Assembly (NCBI RefSeq): GCF_900149695.1
Contig: NZ_LT703003.1
Span: 1,178,001 to 1,242,000, forward strand
DNA: 64,000 nt
Origin: Anderseniella sp. Alg231-50
GTDB taxonomy: Bacteria > Pseudomonadota > Alphaproteobacteria > Rhizobiales > Aestuariivirgaceae
Reading direction: 5' to 3'
A model generated the notes under the pieces. The model did no database searches and was not told the origin of the DNA. It saw only the letters and a list, made by a program, of their open reading frames with translations. A program made the position numbers and the translations under genes. Shown piece after piece: positions 2,999 through 64,000 of this stretch. How positions within the stretch are numbered: position 1 is the first letter of the stretch; each line of letters starts with the position of its first letter.

Positions 2999-3085
2999 GC
3001 CCCTGTGGCGGAACTGGTAGACGCGATAGACTCAAAATCTGTTGTCCGTGAGGGCGTGCCGGTTCGAGTCCGGCTGGGGGCACCA
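2999..3085 (+). tRNA. tRNA-Leu, anticodon CAA
   Basis: This is an 87-nt class II tRNA. The acceptor stem GCCCCTG pairs with TGGGGGC using two G-U pairs, the discriminator is A, and CCA is encoded at 3083-3085. The D-arm contains GGTAGACGC. The anticodon loop CTCAAAA has the CAA anticodon at 3033-3035, flanked by the 5-bp stem ATAGA/TCTGT. A long variable arm (about GTTGTCCGTGAGGGCGTG) and the T-arm GGTTCGAGTCC follow. The long variable arm and CAA anticodon identify a leucine tRNA that reads UUG. Confidence 0.97.
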
Positions 3086-3256
3086 AAGTTTTCGATGAAA
3101 TGATTGACTGTCGCGGTTGCGTGCTGATTTTTCCTGGCGCGCTGCCTGAGCTGTGTAACAATTGGATGAGCAGTGAATTGTCCCATTGATCCACCTGCCG
3201 TCGAGGTGTTAGGCATAACTGACCCCGGGGGCGCGGTGAGTTTACAGGAACATGTT

Positions 3257-4519
3257 TTGGCAACTTCATTCACGACCATGATCCGGGTTTTGCTGGCATC
3301 CGGATTGATCCTCCTGGCCAGCCTGACGGCGGTTAACGCAAATCCGGTTGTGGTCTATGACGGCAAGACCGGCAAGGTCATGGTTGCCAAGGATGCCGGC
3401 AAACCGTGGTTCCCCGCTTCCCTGACAAAGCTGATGACGGCCTATATCGTTTTTCAGGCCATCGAACAGGGCAAGATCACAGCCAAGACCAAGGGTACCG
3501 TCACCAAGACGTCTTCGGCGCCTCCGCCCAGCAAGATCGGGTTCAGGCCGGGCAAGAAGGTGTCGGTTGATCTGGCGCTGAAGGCGCTGCTGATCTACTC
3601 GGCCAATGACATGGCGTCCCTTCTGGCTGAAATCGTTTCCGGCACGCAGGCAGACTTCGCCCGGCTGATGAACGCCACGGCCCGCGACCTCGGCATGACC
3701 GGTTCGCACTTCGTCAATCCGCACGGCCTGTACCACAAGGAGCAGTACACGACCGCCCGCGACATGGCGATCCTGTCCTATGCGCTGCTGAACAAATACC
3801 CGCAGGCGCGCAAATACTATTCCGCGCCGCACCTGAAGCTCGGCAAGAAAAGGCTCCGCAACCGCAACTACCTGCTGCGCATATGGGACAAGGCCGACGG
3901 CATGAAGACCGGCTTCATCTGCCCGTCCGGTTTCAACCTGGTCGCCACTGCCAAGGTAAACGGCCGGCTGGTGGTCGGCGTGGTGTTCGGCACCCGCAGC
4001 GGCCGGGCGCGGGCGCACAAGGCCAAGGTTGTCATGGAGACCGCGGCAGGCTATCCGGCGACAACTTCGATAACGGCACTGCAGAATGAGGGCGGTACGC
4101 CGCCGAACCTGCGCAAGAGGGTTTGCGGCGGCACCGGCCTGCGCATGGTAAGTGCCGACAAGTTTTCCGGCTGGGGCGCGACCTTCGGCAAATTCAAGAG
4201 CGCGGCTGAAGCCGAAGCCGTCATCAACGGCATCCAGGCGGTCAAGGTAAACGCCTTCAGCAAAGCCGGAAGCGGCGTGGTGCGGATACCGTTCACCAAG
4301 GATTTCGTGCCGGTCACGTATAATATCTCGAAAAGCACCAGCCAGTCATTGTGCCAGCAGGTCAAGGGAGCCGGCGGCAAGTGCGAAGTGGTAACACCAT
4401 CGGTGTTTGCATCCTTTGCCAGCCTGTCCGGACGTGAAAAGGCCAAGGGCGGCAAATCTGCACGCAAGACCGCAAAGAAGAAGCGCCGCAAGCGCCGCAA
4501 GCCGGCCTCCGACAAATAA
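3257..4519 (+). CDS. D-alanyl-D-alanine carboxypeptidase with SPOR-like domain
   Basis: This periplasmic DD-carboxypeptidase trims peptidoglycan stem peptides. A signal peptide (hydrophobic LLASGLILLASLTAV, cleavage after VNA) precedes an S11 peptidase domain with the three active-site motifs SLTK, SAND and KTG (in MKTGF). After the catalytic part, a WGATFGKFKSAAEAEAVI segment looks like a SPOR peptidoglycan-binding repeat. The protein ends in a very basic Lys/Arg tail. TTG 3257 has AGGAA 6 nt upstream; ATG 3278 is the alternative start but lacks a ribosome site. Domain order matches alphaproteobacterial DacA-like enzymes with C-terminal SPOR. Confidence 0.87.
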   Translation: MATSFTTMIRVLLASGLILLASLTAVNANPVVVYDGKTGKVMVAKDAGKPWFPASLTKLMTAYIVFQAIEQGKITAKTKGTVTKTSSAPPPSKIGFRPGKKVSVDLALKALLIYSANDMASLLAEIVSGTQADFARLMNATARDLGMTGSHFVNPHGLYHKEQYTTARDMAILSYALLNKYPQARKYYSAPHLKLGKKRLRNRNYLLRIWDKADGMKTGFICPSGFNLVATAKVNGRLVVGVVFGTRSGRARAHKAKVVMETAAGYPATTSITALQNEGGTPPNLRKRVCGGTGLRMVSADKFSGWGATFGKFKSAAEAEAVINGIQAVKVNAFSKAGSGVVRIPFTKDFVPVTYNISKSTSQSLCQQVKGAGGKCEVVTPSVFASFASLSGREKAKGGKSARKTAKKKRRKRRKPASDK

Positions 4520-31943: not shown

Positions 31944-32483
31944 ATGAACTTGGATTTTTGGGTATTTGGTTACGGTTCGCTGATGTGGCGGCCGGGGTTT
32001 GAGTTCGAGGAACGCTGTGGCGCCATTATGCACGGCGTTCATCGCCGGCTGTGTATCTATTCGCACGTGCATCGCGGTACACCGGAAAAACCCGGCATGG
32101 TCCTGGGCCTTGATCGGGGTGGTTCGTGCAGGGGTATCGGATATCGTGTGGCTGTCGGCAGACGGGATGATACGATTGCCTATCTGCGCGAACGCGAACA
32201 GGTAACCATGATCTACAAGGAACGGTGGCGCGAAATGTTCGTCGACCGTGACGGCACACCTCACAAGGTGAATGCACTTGTGTACCTGGTTGATCAGGAC
32301 CATGTGCAATATGCCGGCAAGCGGTCTGCCGAAGACCTGTTGCCGTTTGTCCTGCAGGGACACGGCAAGGGGGGGCCGTGCATCGACTATATTGCCTCAA
32401 CGCTGGATCACATTGAGGAACTGGGTTTCAAGGACAGGCATCTTTCGGAAGTCATGACGCTTGCCCGAAACCAGCGATTATAG
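31944..32483 (+). CDS. Gamma-glutamylcyclotransferase, ChaC family
   Basis: ChaC-type enzymes cleave glutathione to 5-oxoproline and Cys-Gly. The 179-residue protein starts with VFGYGSLMWRPGF (substrate-binding loop) and has the catalytic Glu in LREREQ. The later YAGKRSAED and IDYIASTLDHIEELG stretches are typical of the family. It is divergent from the DUF2125 gene. A gamma-glutamyltransferase is also in the window (20.9 kb), so two gamma-glutamyl enzymes occur here. Confidence 0.9.
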   Translation: MNLDFWVFGYGSLMWRPGFEFEERCGAIMHGVHRRLCIYSHVHRGTPEKPGMVLGLDRGGSCRGIGYRVAVGRRDDTIAYLREREQVTMIYKERWREMFVDRDGTPHKVNALVYLVDQDHVQYAGKRSAEDLLPFVLQGHGKGGPCIDYIASTLDHIEELGFKDRHLSEVMTLARNQRL

Positions 32484-32507: not shown

Positions 32508-32936
32508 CTAGGCTGCCATTTCTGAAAACAGAGGAAGCACGGGCTGAACAAAGCGGCCCGTGTCGCGCGCAGGCAAGGGGCGGCAAATGGCCGGCGCATC
32601 GGCTGCATCCAGCTCAAGGGACGCAGCGAGATCGTCGTAAACACGCAATGCCTGGCTTTCATCGCCTGCCAGCAGGTGCACATGAATTTCACAGGCACCG
32701 TCGGTCATTTCTGTTGGCAGCGGGAAATCCCACAAGGGTGAAAACCGCCCCATGCGAACAGGCGCCCGCGCACCGCTCTCAAGCCGGCGGACCATTACAT
32801 AAATGGCACCCGGCAAGGGCGGGCAGTTTTCAGTGCTGTAGACCGAATGGATGTAACGCTTGCCGGACACGCCGGTCCAGAACCAGAATCTGTCACTGAA
32901 CTCGTTTTCCAGCTCGGCACTTACGCTAAATCCCAT
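32508..32936 (-). CDS. Uncharacterised protein, apparently SOS (LexA) controlled
   Basis: A 142-residue soluble protein I do not recognise. It starts MGFSVSAELENEFSDRFWFW, has a VYSTENCPPLPGAIYVMVRR stretch, and ends PVLPLFSEMAA. No signal peptide, membrane segment or nucleic-acid motif is visible; aromatic residues cluster at the N-terminus. ATG 32936 has AGGAG 6 nt upstream; an earlier in-frame ATG at 32978 lies inside the operator region and is rejected. An exact LexA box within a sigma-70-like promoter lies 26 nt upstream. It follows the class II ribonucleotide reductase gene but has its own promoter. A DNA-damage role is inferred from regulation only. Confidence 0.8.
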   Translation of the reverse strand: MGFSVSAELENEFSDRFWFWTGVSGKRYIHSVYSTENCPPLPGAIYVMVRRLESGARAPVRMGRFSPLWDFPLPTEMTDGACEIHVHLLAGDESQALRVYDDLAASLELDAADAPAICRPLPARDTGRFVQPVLPLFSEMAA

Positions 32937-32961
32937 GACTTTTCTCCTGCTCTCTTGATGA

Positions 32962-32995
32962 GAACAAAAGTAGAACAAAAAATCTCTGAGGTCAA
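32962..32995 (-). promoter_or_regulatory. Sigma-70 promoter with LexA (SOS) box
   Basis: Reading the minus strand, TTGACC (-35, 32995-32990) and TACTTT (-10, 32972-32967) are 17 nt apart. An exact alphaproteobacterial LexA box GTTC-N7-GTTC lies at 32976-32962 and covers the -10 hexamer, so LexA binding would block RNA polymerase. It drives the unknown gene at 32936-32508. Confidence 0.75.
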
Positions 32996-33011: not shown

Positions 33012-35387
33012 TCAACCGCATTTCGAGTATCCGCAGGACATGCAAGTGGCGCATCCTTCCTGAAAAACCAGGGAAAACTCGTTGCATTTGGGGCATTGCG
33101 GACCGGCGGGCCCCGCATCATCCCCGACGGCCAGGCGTTTCGCGTCAACCGAAGCCGGATCAGCCGCAGACAGGTTTTCCACATTCTTCAGGAACCCGGT
33201 CGCCAGCATGTGCTTTTCGATAACACCGCCAATGGCAGCCAGCAGCGAGGGGACATACTTGCCTTCCATCCAGTGACCGCCGCGCGGGTCAAACACGGCT
33301 TTCAGTTCCTCGACCACAAAGGACACATCGCCGCCGCGCCTGAACACGGCAGAGATCATGCGGGTCAGCGCCACGGTCCAGGCATAGTGTTCCATGTTCT
33401 TTGAATTGATGAAGATCTCAAACGGCCGCCTGCGGTCGTTCTCGATGATGTCGTTGAGCGTGATGTATATGGCGTGATCGCTGTCACCCCATTTCAGCTT
33501 GTAGGTAAAGCCCGGCAGCACAGGATCGCGGTCGAGCGGCTGGCGCATGTAGACAATGCCCGCTTCGGTTTGCCCAACCGGTGCGGCAGGGGCTTCGAGC
33601 GGCAGGGCGGCTTGCGCTTCGGCCCCTTCGTCAGCCAGCGCCTCGGACAGCACTGATCCGGTGATGTCATTGGGCCTGTAGGTCGTGCATCCCTTCAGCC
33701 CGAGCTCCCAGGCTTCCATATAGACATTGCCGAAGTCCTCGAACGAGATGTTTTCCGGGCAATTGACGGTTTTGGAAATGGAACTGTCGACATGGCCCTG
33801 CAGGGCGGCCTGCATGACAAGGTGATCGTGCGGTGACAGGTCTGCCGTGGTTACCAATGCATCCGGCAGGTCGGCTTCGTCGCCGCGCAGCGCGCGAAAA
33901 GCCCGCAGCGCGTAATCTTCAACCTGCTCGATCCGGTGACTGCCGTCCGGCTGCAGGACCTTGCGGTTGTAGTTCAGCGAAAACACCGGTTCGACGCCGG
34001 ACGACACATTTCCGGCAAACAGGGAGATGGTGCCGGTCGGCGCAATCGACGTGAGAAGGGCGTTGCGGATGCCGTTTTCGCGAATTGCGCCGCGCACGTC
34101 ATCATCAAGGTCGCGGACATGACCCGACGCCGGGTATTCCTCAGCATCGAACAGCGGGAAGGAGCCTTTTTCCGCAGCAAGTCCGGAGCTCGCCAGGTAG
34201 GCAGCGCGCTCGATTGCCTGCATCCAGATTTTTGCAGCCGCTGCGGCGTCTTCAGAGCCATAGCGCAGCCCGCACATGGCGAGTGCATTGGCGAGACCGG
34301 TAACCCCCAGGCCGATGCGCCGCTTGGCGCGGGCCTCGGCAGCCTGGGCTTCCAGCGGGTAGTTTGACACATCCACCACATTGTCCAGCATGCGCACGGC
34401 GATGCCGGTTATGCGCACAAGCTCTTCCATGTCCAGGTGAGCTGCATCTGAAAACGGGGTTGTCACCAGGCTGGCCAGGTTGATCGAGCCGAGCAGGCAG
34501 GCGCCATAGGGCGGCAGCGGTTGTTCCCCGCACGGGTTGGTGGCGTGAATGGTCTCGCAATAGGAAAGATTGTTGCGCGAATTGATCCGGTCGATGAAAA
34601 TCACGCCGGGTTCGGCATAGGCATAGGTCGCCTGCATGATCCGGTTCCACAGGTCACGGGCCCGTACGGTTTTGAAAACGGTGCCGCCGAACACCAGCGG
34701 CCAGTCCCCGTCGGCCTTCACGGCCGCCATGAACGGATCGGTGACCAGCACCGACAGGTTGAACATGCGCAGGCGCTGGGCTTCATGTTTCGCTGTAATG
34801 AAATCTTCAATGTCGGGATGGTCGCAGCGCATGGTCGCCATCATGGCGCCGCGCCGCGAGCCCGCCGACATGATGGTGCGGCACATGGCGTCCCAGACGT
34901 CCATGAAACTCAGTGGCCCGGAGGCGTCCGCGCCGACGCCCCTGACCGGCGCGCCCTTGGGCCGAAGCGTTGAAAAGTCATGGCCTATGCCACCACCCTG
35001 CTGCATGGTCAGTGCGGCCTCGCGCAATCCATTGAAGATCGCGCCCATGTCATCCTCGATGGTGCCCATGACAAAGCAGTTGAACAGCGTCACCGAACGG
35101 TTGGTGCCGGCACCGGCAATGATGCGTCCTGCCGGCAGGAACTTGTAGCCGGACATGACCTCGGCAAAGGCCTTCTCCCAGCGTGTTCGGACTTTTGCCT
35201 TTTCAGGTGCCGCCAGTGCCTTGGCGACACGGGCCCATGTGTCGTCGATCGTCTGATCAATGGCTGAGCCGTCCGGCGACTTGAAGCGGTACTTCATGTC
35301 CCAGATTTCGCGGGAAATCGGATCAAGTGCGGTGTCTGTAGCCACGATGGTTACCCACAACTGGTGTGATGGACGGAACATCATCAC
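33012..35387 (-). CDS. nrdJ: Adenosylcobalamin-dependent (class II) ribonucleotide reductase
   Basis: NrdJ reduces ribonucleotides to deoxyribonucleotides using a radical generated from adenosylcobalamin, with or without oxygen. The 791-residue protein has the active-site NPCGEQPLPPYGACLLGS (finger-loop Cys), FNCFVMGTIEDDM with the reducible N-terminal Cys, TGTISLFAGNVSSG, and a C-terminal zinc-ribbon-like tail (CPKCNEF...CATCMSCGYSKCG) that re-reduces the active site. Two further in-frame starts (a GTG near residue 12) are possible. A cobalamin adenosyltransferase gene lies at 53.4-53.9 kb. No B12 riboswitch fits in the 43-nt gap upstream. Confidence 0.95.
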   Translation of the reverse strand: MMMFRPSHQLWVTIVATDTALDPISREIWDMKYRFKSPDGSAIDQTIDDTWARVAKALAAPEKAKVRTRWEKAFAEVMSGYKFLPAGRIIAGAGTNRSVTLFNCFVMGTIEDDMGAIFNGLREAALTMQQGGGIGHDFSTLRPKGAPVRGVGADASGPLSFMDVWDAMCRTIMSAGSRRGAMMATMRCDHPDIEDFITAKHEAQRLRMFNLSVLVTDPFMAAVKADGDWPLVFGGTVFKTVRARDLWNRIMQATYAYAEPGVIFIDRINSRNNLSYCETIHATNPCGEQPLPPYGACLLGSINLASLVTTPFSDAAHLDMEELVRITGIAVRMLDNVVDVSNYPLEAQAAEARAKRRIGLGVTGLANALAMCGLRYGSEDAAAAAKIWMQAIERAAYLASSGLAAEKGSFPLFDAEEYPASGHVRDLDDDVRGAIRENGIRNALLTSIAPTGTISLFAGNVSSGVEPVFSLNYNRKVLQPDGSHRIEQVEDYALRAFRALRGDEADLPDALVTTADLSPHDHLVMQAALQGHVDSSISKTVNCPENISFEDFGNVYMEAWELGLKGCTTYRPNDITGSVLSEALADEGAEAQAALPLEAPAAPVGQTEAGIVYMRQPLDRDPVLPGFTYKLKWGDSDHAIYITLNDIIENDRRRPFEIFINSKNMEHYAWTVALTRMISAVFRRGGDVSFVVEELKAVFDPRGGHWMEGKYVPSLLAAIGGVIEKHMLATGFLKNVENLSAADPASVDAKRLAVGDDAGPAGPQCPKCNEFSLVFQEGCATCMSCGYSKCG

Positions 35388-35430: not shown

Positions 35431-36150
35431 TTAACCTGCGCGCCCTTCGGCGACCAGCCGGCTGGTTGCTTCTTCAACGACGTCCTGCAGGCGGGCTGAA
35501 AACTGCTTGCGGGTGAGACCGGCTTCGATCGGCGGCAGGAACTCCACGATGATGGTGCCCGGGTGCCGGATGAACCGGCGTCTGGGCCAGTACAGGCCGG
35601 AATTCAGCGCAAATGGTGTGCATGGCACGCCAAGTTGCATGTAGAGCGCGGTTGCGCCCGGTTTGTAGTCCGGCTCGGCATCCGGACCCATTCGCGTGCC
35701 TTCGGGAAATATCAGGACCTGGCGTCCAGCGGCAATGGCCTGTTTTGCATCGGCAATCATCTTTTTCAGGGCAGACGGACCTGCCGACCGGTTCACCGAG
35801 ATCATCTTGAACTTGAGGCAGAACCAGCCGAACACGGGGATGAAGGTCAACTCGCGCTTCAGCACCAGGGCAGGGTCTGCCAGCAGGGGAAGCAGGGCAA
35901 ATATGTCCCAGGCTGACTGGTGCTTGCCGGCCAGCAGGCCGCCTGTTTGCGGTATGTGCTCGCGGCCACGGACTTCCATCCTGGTGCCGGTGATCAGCTT
36001 CATCCACCACAATGACGTTCTCGCCCAGACCCTCAGGGCGGCTATGGACCAGCTTCTCGGCGTGAACATGAACCAGAACCCGAGCACCAGAAACAGCACC
36101 AGATTGATGTAGAAAACCAGATTGAACAGTAAGGACCGAAACGCCAGCAC
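35431..36150 (-). CDS. plsC: 1-acyl-sn-glycerol-3-phosphate acyltransferase
   Basis: PlsC converts lysophosphatidic acid to phosphatidic acid at the inner membrane. The acyltransferase motifs HQSAWD (HX4D), FPEGTRMGP and VPCTPFALNSG are all present, and an N-terminal hydrophobic stretch (LVFYINLVLFLVLGFWFMF) anchors it. GTG 36150 is chosen because GGGAG lies 8 nt upstream; the in-frame ATG at 36237 would overlap the upstream gene. It lies between ydcF and nrdJ, all on the same strand. Confidence 0.9.
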   Translation of the reverse strand: MLAFRSLLFNLVFYINLVLFLVLGFWFMFTPRSWSIAALRVWARTSLWWMKLITGTRMEVRGREHIPQTGGLLAGKHQSAWDIFALLPLLADPALVLKRELTFIPVFGWFCLKFKMISVNRSAGPSALKKMIADAKQAIAAGRQVLIFPEGTRMGPDAEPDYKPGATALYMQLGVPCTPFALNSGLYWPRRRFIRHPGTIIVEFLPPIEAGLTRKQFSARLQDVVEEATSRLVAEGRAG

Positions 36151-36191
36151 ACCCAATTCTCCCGTACCGCATCCTGATTGTCGCCGCAGTT

Positions 36192-36815
36192 TCAGAGCAG
36201 CAGCGCAAGCAGGTATTTGACATATTCGCTGATCCACAGGCGCAGCATTGAAAACGAACGTGCAGTCTTCCCGGTGTCATCACTGGCAACCGGATAGGGC
36301 ACCAGTTCAACGTCGGGCATGGCACGCGAAAACTCAACGATGGCGCGCAGAATATGATAGTCGCTTGTTACGACCGCAATTTTTCTGAATTTATGCCTGG
36401 TTGCCCAGTCGGCTGCTTCTGCTGCATTGCCGCGGGTGTCGGGAGCGCGTTTGTCCAGATCCACGCAGCAGTTGAACAAACTGGCTTCGGCCTGTGTAAT
36501 CCGGCTCAGCTGCCGGGCCGTGGTTGCCGGGTAAACACCTGAAATCAACAGGCGTCTGGCGGTTTTCTGTTCAAGCAGGCGAACCGCTGCGGAAATACGT
36601 TCCGGCCCGCCGGTGAGAACCACAATTCCATCCACCGACAGGTTGGCCGGTCCGGCAATCTTGCGCGACTTTTCGGAAAATGACGCAAACCCTGCTGTTG
36701 CAGCAAGAAGCATGCACACAACGATACCCAGTCCGACCCACCAGCTATTGCCACGCCGTCGCTGCGTGTCGCTGTCATGCGTCTCGGCACTGGATTTTCC
36801 GGAAGGGTCAGACAT
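36192..36815 (-). CDS. YdcF/SanA-like (DUF218) membrane protein
   Basis: A 207-residue protein with one N-terminal membrane helix (WWVGLGIVVCMLLAATAGFA) and a DUF218 domain: DGIVVLTGGPERISAA, LLISGV, DTRGNAAEAADW and VVTSDYHILRA. Members of this family act in envelope biogenesis, including control of lipid carriers and barrier function, but the biochemical role is unsettled. It lies just upstream of plsC and downstream of ftsEX on the same strand. Confidence 0.87.
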   Translation of the reverse strand: MSDPSGKSSAETHDSDTQRRRGNSWWVGLGIVVCMLLAATAGFASFSEKSRKIAGPANLSVDGIVVLTGGPERISAAVRLLEQKTARRLLISGVYPATTARQLSRITQAEASLFNCCVDLDKRAPDTRGNAAEAADWATRHKFRKIAVVTSDYHILRAIVEFSRAMPDVELVPYPVASDDTGKTARSFSMLRLWISEYVKYLLALLL

Positions 36816-58217: not shown

Positions 58218-58796
58218 ATGCCTCGACTGTTCACTGGCGTAGAACTACCACCAGATGTGGGCCAGGACCTGGCAATCATGAAAGGCGGCATTGAAGGTGC
58301 GCGCTGGATTGATCCGGACAACTACCATCTCACCTTGCGGTTTATTGGGGATATTCCCGACCGGGCGGCTGATGAACTGACGGGCGAACTGCAACGGGTC
58401 GTTGCCATGCCTGCATTCAATATCGGGCTTGCCGGCATGGGGGTATTTGGAACCAAAAAGCCCCATTCCCTCTATGTGAAAGTCGAGGAAAGCCCGGATC
58501 TCAGGCGTCTGCAGGCAATACATGAGCGTGTGTGTCAGTCACTGGGCATGCCGCCGGAGCAGCGCAAATTCACCCCGCACGTGACAATTGCCCGCCTGCG
58601 CGGAGCCATACCGCGCCAGGTGCAGGCTTATGTCGGAGCGCATAACCTGTATCGTTCGCGGATTTTCGATGTCAGCCAGTTCGTGCTGTTTTCAGCCCGT
58701 TCATCGCGCGGCGGCGGGCCCTACGGGCGGGAAGAGGTTTATCCTCTCGAGCAACATGGGTTCGGTGGAACCCATAAAGTTGCTCGAACACTTTAG
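58218..58796 (+). CDS. thpR: RNA 2',3'-cyclic phosphodiesterase (2H family), tail derived from a repeat
   Basis: The enzyme opens 2',3'-cyclic phosphates. Two HxTx motifs of the 2H fold are present: YHLTLRFIGD (about 35-44) and HVTIARLRG (about 122-130). AGGAGGG lies upstream of ATG 58218. The last 16 residues ([16 protein letters not shown]) are encoded by a palindromic repeat, so the native end was probably near YGREEVYP. The stop overlaps that of the convergent phosphatase gene by 4 nt. Confidence 0.88.
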   Translation: MPRLFTGVELPPDVGQDLAIMKGGIEGARWIDPDNYHLTLRFIGDIPDRAADELTGELQRVVAMPAFNIGLAGMGVFGTKKPHSLYVKVEESPDLRRLQAIHERVCQSLGMPPEQRKFTPHVTIARLRGAIPRQVQAYVGAHNLYRSRIFDVSQFVLFSARSSRGGGPYGREEVYPLEQHGFGGTHKVARTL

Positions 58797-58806
58797 GAAC
58801 CTGATC
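58747..58806 (-). repeat. Composite palindromic repeat, copy 7 (module 2, reverse orientation)
   Basis: On the minus strand it reads GATCAGGTTCCTAAAGTGTTCGAGCAAC and has the core TGGGTTCCACCGAACCCA, aligning with 50693-50750. It covers the last codons of thpR and the stop codons of both convergent genes. Confidence 0.75.
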
Positions 58807-61024: not shown

Positions 61025-61220
61025 GGAATTGGGTGCTGAAACCGGTCGATCTGTCATGCAAAGATAATGAAACTGCCCAATTCCAGACACAAATAGACCC
61101 AAGAATCGTCAGGAACGCGGAACAGTATTCACTTGTTGCCTCAAGGCCCGGCTCCAGATCGTTTCGGATATCTCAGCCCCCCAGCCCCCCGTGGCGAATT
61201 CGGAGCCGGGCCTGTTTTTT
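61025..61220 (+). ncRNA. Candidate small RNA with C-rich terminator loop
   Basis: The 5' part forms a 9-bp stem GGAATTGGG/CCCAATTCC (61025-61033 with 61076-61084). The 3' part is a strong intrinsic terminator: a 12-bp stem AGGCCCGGCTCC/GGAGCCGGGCCT (61144-61155 with 61202-61213), then six T. Its 46-nt loop contains CAGCCCCCCAGCCCCCC, C-rich runs able to pair with Shine-Dalgarno sequences. No reading frame overlaps it. It does not match tmRNA, 4.5S or RNase P by eye. The 5' end and promoter are not defined. Confidence 0.45.
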
Positions 61221-63463: not shown

Positions 63464-64000
63464 ATGTCCATCAAGATTGATCGTCTTTCCCTCACCCGCC
63501 GCAACGTGCTGCGTACTGGCGCGGCTGCATCAGCCAGCCTTGTCGCAGGCGGGCTGTTTGCACCTTCCATAAGCCGGGCATCATCAAGGCCGGTCATAAG
63601 CCACGGGCTGCAGTCAGGCGACGTTACCGGCTCGTCAGGTGTCGTCTGGGCACGCGCTGACAGGCCTGCGCGCATGAAGGTGGAATGGTCCACAACCGAG
63701 AGCTTTGCCAGTTCCACGGCAGTTCAGCCGCTCGACCTGATCGATGGAACAGATTTTGCCGGCAAGCTGCCGCTGACAGGTTTGCCGTCTGACCAGGACA
63801 TTTTCTACAAGGTTGAGATGCTTGACCTGGCGGACTTTTCCACCAGGGGTGAGGCGATGGTCGGCAAATTCCGTACCGCGCCCGTGAACAAGCGTGACGT
63901 TTCGTTTGTCTGGTCTGGTGACACCGCCGGACAGGGCTGGGGTATCGATGTGGATCGCGGCGGTATGAAGACCTATCGCACCATGGCTGGACACACGCCT
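63464..64000 (+). CDS. phoD: PhoD-like alkaline phosphatase, 3' end cut off by window edge
   Basis: The visible 179 residues start with a twin-arginine signal (LTRRNVLRTGAAASASLVAGG, cleavage near SRA). The N-terminal PhoD_N domain follows: ISHGLQSGDVTGSSGVVWAR, then FYKVEM and KFRTAP. The start of the metallophosphatase core (SFVWSGDTAGQGWGID, with the metal-binding Asp) is reached just before the end. PhoD enzymes are Ca/Fe-dependent exported phosphomono/diesterases, usually induced by phosphate limitation. AGAGG lies 8 nt before ATG 63464. No Pho box is evident in the 104-nt gap. Confidence 0.9.
   Translation, partial: MSIKIDRLSLTRRNVLRTGAAASASLVAGGLFAPSISRASSRPVISHGLQSGDVTGSSGVVWARADRPARMKVEWSTTESFASSTAVQPLDLIDGTDFAGKLPLTGLPSDQDIFYKVEMLDLADFSTRGEAMVGKFRTAPVNKRDVSFVWSGDTAGQGWGIDVDRGGMKTYRTMAGHTP

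Follow-up and report, generated by a model that had tools for sequence, protein, structure and literature searches.

A small gene under a conserved LexA box in the Hyphomicrobiales: a candidate SOS regulon member encoding a degenerate protein of probable GIY-YIG descent

Introduction

Cho of E. coli is an SOS-inducible GIY-YIG nuclease and a catalytically active homologue of UvrC. SidA and DidA are small membrane inhibitors of cell division, and SocB is a protein that binds the sliding clamp. In Caulobacter, the SOS box has been given as GTTCN7GTTC (PMC9578287; PMC12700426). ImuB is described as a Y-family polymerase without catalytic activity that connects ImuC/DnaE2 with the clamp (PMC9578287), and the toxin SocB of Caulobacter is removed by ClpXP with the help of the adaptor SocA (PMC5422525). 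In ClpXP degrons of the ssrA type, the terminal Ala-Ala is the crucial part (PMC7652416), and many SOS proteins of E. coli are protease-labile (PMC3374874). The clamp-binding motif is given as QL[S/D]LF or QxxLF, and the QLSLPL found in Hda binds tightly (PMC12309361); it is often C-terminal and is present in transposases and other enzymes (PMC4549789).

The gene described here encodes a protein of 142 aa and resembles each of these systems in part. With the GIY-YIG superfamily (UvrC, Cho and the small GIY-YIG proteins) it appears to share homology by way of seven intermediates, whereas its catalytic residues have been lost and other residues, including an N-terminal W-x-G-x-S-G-x-x-Y segment, are near invariant instead. 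GIY-YIG ancestry together with SOS control, as is proposed for the 142-aa family, is the combination found in Cho; unlike Cho, the family has no catalytic residues and gives no direct alignment with UvrC. To ImuB the likeness would be that of a protein that descends from a DNA enzyme but has lost catalysis, stands under LexA and is linked to the clamp, and the differences lie in the ancestry (Y-family polymerase versus GIY-YIG), in the separate operon and in the occurrence of the gene without a convincing ImuB. The possible likeness to SocB is one of logic, in that a small protein that binds the clamp would be held at a low level by ClpXP; SocB, however, needs the adaptor SocA, and LexA control is not described for it in the available part of its source (PMC5422525). 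Among the literature matches listed, the gene was not named in titles or abstract openings.

Results

The window, that is, the whole 64-kb stretch of DNA that was analysed, carries on its minus strand a gene of 142 codons with its ATG at 32936 and its stop codon at 32510-32508. The features of the gene and of the region upstream of it are as follows.

32508..32936, minus strand: gene for the 142-aa protein P0001, stop codon included, with the same start in relatives of the genus
32944..32948, minus strand: ribosome-binding site AGGAG, read from the sequence
32962..32976, minus strand: LexA box GTTCTACTTTTGTTC, an exact GTTC-N7-GTTC that overlaps the -10 element
32967..32972, minus strand: -10 element TACTTT, inside the LexA box, after a 17-nt spacer
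32990..32995, minus strand: -35 element TTGACC, read from the sequence and recurring in relatives as TTGA[CT]

An earlier note on this DNA had described a TTGACC-N17-TACTTT promoter overlapped by an exact GTTC-N7-GTTC, and a good ribosome site before the gene; the former was confirmed on the minus strand at 32962-32995 and the latter as AGGAG at 32948-32944. The box was indeed exact, while its distance from the start codon, stated as 26 nt, was counted as 25 nt. In a promoter scan, the promoter of the 142-aa gene stayed below the sigma-70 threshold. It should be mentioned that a single GTTC-N7-GTTC in 64 kb is unremarkable and not significant alone: three exact copies were found in the window against 1.82 expected, and the whole genome contained 170 exact copies against 116 for the reversed pattern. 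The two other copies of the window lie at 58786-58800 on the minus strand and at 63711-63725 on the plus strand, and their number is at chance level. Elsewhere in the window, positions 61145-61215 gave a partial Rfam match to the Bradyrhizobiaceae sRNA BjrC174, with a score of 45.2 against a gathering threshold of 45.

Relatives of the protein were collected from several sets of genomes. A search with the single protein found the gene in 52 of 80 related genomes, and a profile search of 397 sampled Hyphomicrobiales genomes found the family in 223; a wider profile reached 13 of 385 class-wide genomes, two of which belong to the order, one of them being that of the window. The loci fetched represent only part of the matches of the 397-genome search. 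All 182 of them gave a match, and 161 distinct proteins were obtained after identical cores had been merged, two weak partial matches (L005 and L006) having been excluded ahead of all counts. No relative of the family was found in the viral contigs scanned, and a search of phage records with the relative L003 gave no match.

An exact GTTC-N7-GTTC was present at most 300 bp upstream of the gene in 103 of 160 distinct relatives (L061 has no upstream sequence, and the upstream counts rest on the 160 relatives with 300 bp), while only 12 of 2248 other 330-bp windows from the same loci, which served as the control, carried the exact box. The reversed motif was found upstream of the gene in none of the 160. 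The check that the earlier note had proposed, namely whether the box is kept upstream of orthologues, was therefore answered in the affirmative, and it is from this conservation in relatives, not from the motif count in the window, that the box takes its significance. In the window's own family, 35 of the 36 distinct proteins (the window protein counted) had the box; the one member without it, L047, belongs to a gene that runs off its contig.

The arrangement of the promoter recurred as well. In 83 of 102 cases TTGA[CT] preceded the box by no more than 40 bp, against 8.2 expected from shuffles, and in 76 of the 102 it stood at 18-20 nt from the box; the interior of the box in the relatives was skewed to TA-n-n-TTT. 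This skew and this spacing together indicate that the box covers the -10 element of a standard-looking promoter. The 57 of 160 relatives in which the exact box was absent are largely whole subfamilies, and the box-less groups include subfamilies with an LNLAxLR segment as well as relatives outside the order. Mapped on a core-domain tree, the presence or absence of the box needed only five changes, as would be expected of an old, stable feature. At two loci, L211 (genome G777) and L214 (genome G717), the box was located more than 200 bp upstream of the core.

The same box also precedes lexA and the gene taken as imuA in the genome of the window, in the other orientation in both cases, and ends about 90 nt before the ATG of lexA and 27 nt before that of the presumed imuA. 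Here lexA was assigned by a family model and ImuB by its IMS domain, and imuA and dnaE2 were assigned by position and size beside the IMS-domain protein. The lexA model scored over its cut-off in 70 of 80 relatives. It gave no match in G387, G389, G394 and G437, all with a boxed copy of the gene and with a completeness of 78%, 86%, 100% and 94%, respectively; fragmented assemblies may account for this and are the sole explanation that we can offer. LexA control of the gene is strongly supported by comparative genomics, and binding of LexA at the box with induction of the gene is predicted as very likely. The gene had been put forward as a candidate new DNA-damage response gene, a proposal that the conservation of the box across relatives supports. 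It is a candidate member of the SOS regulon that is common in its order, under a kind of regulation that is not new.

The window protein itself gave no usable match in Pfam, NCBIfam, PHROGs, PADLOC or the PDB sequences. In a comparison of 53 relatives with Pfam and NCBIfam, every family that matched did so in a single relative, and one member had a marginal match to the NCBIfam model of Cho (E 0.02). The earlier statement that the protein contains no recognisable motif was thus borne out for Pfam and NCBIfam, and it has to be revised for the ancestry, since a GIY-YIG origin can be recognised via intermediates. A tblastn search of plasmids with the window protein returned a Bradyrhizobium protein annotated as 'GIY-YIG nuclease family protein' (33%, E 1e-7), and the Pfam GIY-YIG family (PF01541) appeared, below its cut-off, only in L003 (E 0.0074) and L124 (E 0.014 and 0.051). 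A profile that included L003, L124 and L190 brought in eight further proteins from outside the order, and four of them (L253, L255, L257 and L259) looked canonical by eye; Pfam gave no name to these four.

With these seven canonical-looking proteins as intermediates (97 aligned columns), a profile of 73 degenerate members, from which L002-L004, L124 and L190 had been removed, was aligned by hhalign with a probability of 99.67 (E 1.4e-25). The seven in turn were aligned with six GIY-YIG segments of UvrC with a probability of 94.2 (E 1.2e-7), three of the seven having belonged to the profile that found the other four. When the degenerate members were compared with UvrC directly, no alignment was obtained (probability 0.17). 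The degenerate set is therefore joined to UvrC only through the canonical-looking set, and on these profile comparisons the window protein is assigned to the GIY-YIG nuclease superfamily through intermediates only. Profile comparisons and conserved residues delimited the following domain.

32604..32885, minus strand: degenerate GIY-YIG-derived core, about residues 18-111

The family profile showed no sequence resemblance to the solved structures of the PDB (best E 4.3), and AlphaFold2 models built from five sequences had pLDDT values of 39 and 44.

Two of the canonical-looking relatives deserve a separate description. L190, a second copy in genome G548 (core 3001-3297), is a paralogue with complete-looking GIY-YIG residues IGET..ER...NH (IESDLLQTHRPPLN) and a LexA box 115 bp upstream of its core. 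Pfam does not name it, and it may be an active SOS nuclease and represent an intermediate in evolution. L124 is located on the conjugative plasmid NZ_CP088103.1 of Bradyrhizobium barranii, in surroundings that contain transposase and group II intron genes.

The window protein differs from an active GIY-YIG enzyme at each of the four catalytic columns, with R in place of the Tyr of YIG, F in place of the Arg, Y in place of the Glu and A in place of the Asn. Residues were counted over 156 members, the truncated L047 and L061 and the canonical-looking L003, L124 and L190 having been left out of the 161. Tyr or Phe was found in 8 of them, Arg in 8, Glu in 47 and Asn in none, and no member of the 156 had Y/F, R and E together. 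Another set of residues was near invariant in the same 156 members, comprising G22 (156), D102 (156), W20 (155), Y28 (155), H85 (152), S24 (151), E83 (151) and H87 (146). To judge from these columns, the GIY-YIG-derived domain probably acts through binding to DNA or to a protein and not by the original chemistry.

The tail beyond the core is poorly conserved, and two short signals recur in it, both of which are seen in the window protein.

32511..32516, minus strand: C-terminal Ala-Ala (end SEMAA), ClpXP-degron-like by sequence (PMC7652416)
32526..32546, minus strand: QPVLPLF, residues 131-137, clamp-binding-like when compared with QL[S/D]LF, QxxLF and QLSLPL (PMC12309361)

An Ala-Ala end was found in 48 of the 103 boxed members and in 1 of the 57 box-less ones, as compared with 22 of 704 background ORFs (at least 300 codons, any frame, from the same loci, some of them not genes). 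For the narrower end [LVMI]AA, the corresponding numbers were 24 boxed members, 1 box-less member and 2 background ORFs. The 49 Ala-Ala ends were spread over nine families, or eight if the box-less L059 is set aside. Turnover of the 142-aa protein by ClpXP would, on the strength of this terminus, stand at even odds.

The clamp-binding patterns were composed after the tails had been viewed; the loose one occurred in 21 of 103 boxed tails (shuffles: mean 1.6, maximum 6), the strict pentamer in 9 of 103 (shuffle mean 0.03) and QxxLxLF in 6 of 103, including the QPVLPLF of the window, which fits QxxLxLF and not the strict pentamer. No clamp-like pattern was found in the tails of the 57 box-less members; 82 of the 103 boxed members have no such motif either, and a similar pattern had no match in the ImuB of this genome. 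Binding of the 142-aa protein to the clamp is suggested by the motif at odds just short of even. A tree-based test of the box against the tail motifs yielded 1 to 5 independent pairs, which is too few to separate the association of the box with the Ala-Ala end or with the clamp motif from the effect of kinship. In L211, a clamp-like QLNLL segment was seen upstream of the core and not in the tail.

The gene is flanked in the window by the following neighbours.

31944..32483, plus strand: ChaC-like protein, the convergent downstream neighbour
33012..35387, minus strand: short class II ribonucleotide reductase NrdJ of 791 aa, an optional upstream neighbour with no GTTC-N7-GTTC near its start
35431..36237, minus strand: acyltransferase (PF01553), the next gene upstream of nrdJ

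That the gene follows a class II ribonucleotide reductase, as had been noticed before, is true of the window and of 72 of the 160 relatives, box-less members included, in which a recognised nrdJ adjoins it, a tally in which divergent NrdJ may be undercounted; as a clue to function this position proved to be weak evidence. An NrdJ-like sequence was also found upstream of L002-L004, three relatives outside the order, and the adjacency may therefore be old. On the other side, 58 of the 103 boxed copies were not beside a recognised nrdJ. Flanks of 2.9 kb or more upstream and 1.4 kb or more downstream were available for 105 loci, of which 34 had the acyltransferase upstream and no nrdJ in the available flank, and 55 had the convergent downstream chaC. 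As the acyltransferase and chaC are kept where nrdJ is absent, the slot can be written as acyltransferase-(nrdJ)-gene-chaC. The box was present at none of the 24 nrdJ promoters examined.

Discussion

The best explanation of these data, to which we give a probability of about 0.5, is that the gene is a LexA-repressed SOS gene of the Hyphomicrobiales whose product is a transient effector at the replication fork. LexA bound to the box would cover the -10 element and block the promoter until DNA damage triggers the cleavage of LexA. The GIY-YIG-derived domain, devoid of catalytic residues, would bind DNA or a protein, and in this lineage the QPVLPLF tail would bring the protein to stalled forks via the sliding clamp. 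The final Ala-Ala would hand the protein to ClpXP, and it would be gone once the damage is over. A role directed at DNA or at the fork, however it is carried out, appears on balance probable.

A fuller version of this scheme can be offered as a tentative possibility with the odds against it. The product would be an SOS effector old in the Hyphomicrobiales, a pseudo-GIY-YIG protein recruited by the clamp, acting as a brake or shield at damaged forks and cleared by ClpXP. At the forks it might occupy branched DNA or displace other clamp clients, and its origin would lie in a small GIY-YIG enzyme, still seen as the boxed L190, that lost its chemistry. A damage-response component that is conserved in a large order of bacteria has probably escaped notice, and the family is covered by no model of Pfam or NCBIfam; if the scheme is true, it would provide a clear case of a nuclease fold put to another use.

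Several other explanations have to be weighed against a transient effector at the fork. The box could be a chance match and the gene not SOS-regulated, as the 1.8 exact matches expected in such a window and the four boxed relatives that gave no lexA match might suggest; the promoter box in 103 of 160 relatives versus 12 of 2248 controls, and a promoter geometry that is fixed across relatives, make this extremely improbable. The main rival is an active enzyme, in which E83-x-H85-x-H87 and D102, together with S24, Y28 and W20, would form a new site on the GIY-YIG scaffold, giving a metal-dependent SOS nuclease or other hydrolase. These seven residues are near invariant (146-156 of 156), and the boxed paralogue L190 is, by eye, still a complete-looking GIY-YIG enzyme. 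However, the E, H and H are also found in the canonical-looking L003 and L124 and partly in L190, and being common to such relatives they may be ancestral structural residues; moreover, no solved structure is alike by sequence to the family profile, and models of such low pLDDT give no support to a clustering of the residues. We consider an active enzyme unlikely. The earlier note had also mentioned cell-division inhibitors. An SOS inhibitor like SulA, SidA or DidA would agree with the SOS control indicated by box conservation, with the small size of the protein and with its possible rapid proteolysis, but the protein, unlike SidA and DidA, has no membrane-like segment and no hydrophobic stretch (best 19-residue hydropathy 0.53), and its ancestry is in a superfamily of nucleic-acid enzymes, which leaves such a function highly improbable.

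The same note had suggested a mutasome part. Membership of the ImuA-ImuB-DnaE2 mutasome could be read from the LexA box that the gene taken as imuA shares in the same genome, and from the clamp-like motif, ImuB being said to use one for the clamp (PMC9578287). The presence of the gene also correlated with that of ImuB in 80 relatives (both 44, gene only 14, ImuB only 9, neither 13; Fisher p 0.007, kinship uncorrected), in a table tallied by hand in which a convincing ImuB had a best E below 1e-20, 8 of the 22 gene-negative genomes were tested by single-sequence search only and the gene-positive G457 rests on an E of 8.7e-4. Against this stand the position of the gene outside the imu cassette of this genome and the 14 of 58 gene-bearing genomes without a convincing ImuB, of which eight have boxed and five box-less copies (counts from the fetched loci, 13 of the 14). 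A gene that is present without a convincing ImuB is not an obligate part of the mutasome; membership as a necessary role was rejected on this count, the box-bearing copies in such genomes speak against the suggestion, and we hold it to be improbable.

A similarly low standing is given to the proposal that the gene serves the neighbouring class II ribonucleotide reductase as an accessory or a regulator, being expressed upon damage and tuning the dNTP supply. The adjacency, with nrdJ directly upstream in 72 of 160 relatives and an NrdJ-like sequence upstream of L002-L004 as well, is the only tie to ribonucleotide reductase function that was found, and against it are the 58 of 103 boxed copies away from a recognised nrdJ, the 34 of 105 loci with the upstream acyltransferase and no nrdJ in the flank, and the 0 of 24 boxed nrdJ promoters. 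With nrdJ missing from many loci and its promoters without the box, the adjacency was rejected as the main functional clue. Many relatives have a second, long NrdJ elsewhere in the genome. In G396, G402 and G414, about 1.1 kb of additional in-frame sequence seems to split the short nrdJ at profile position 282, and the resulting open frames of 1156-1243 aa, where about 780 would be expected, are intein-like.
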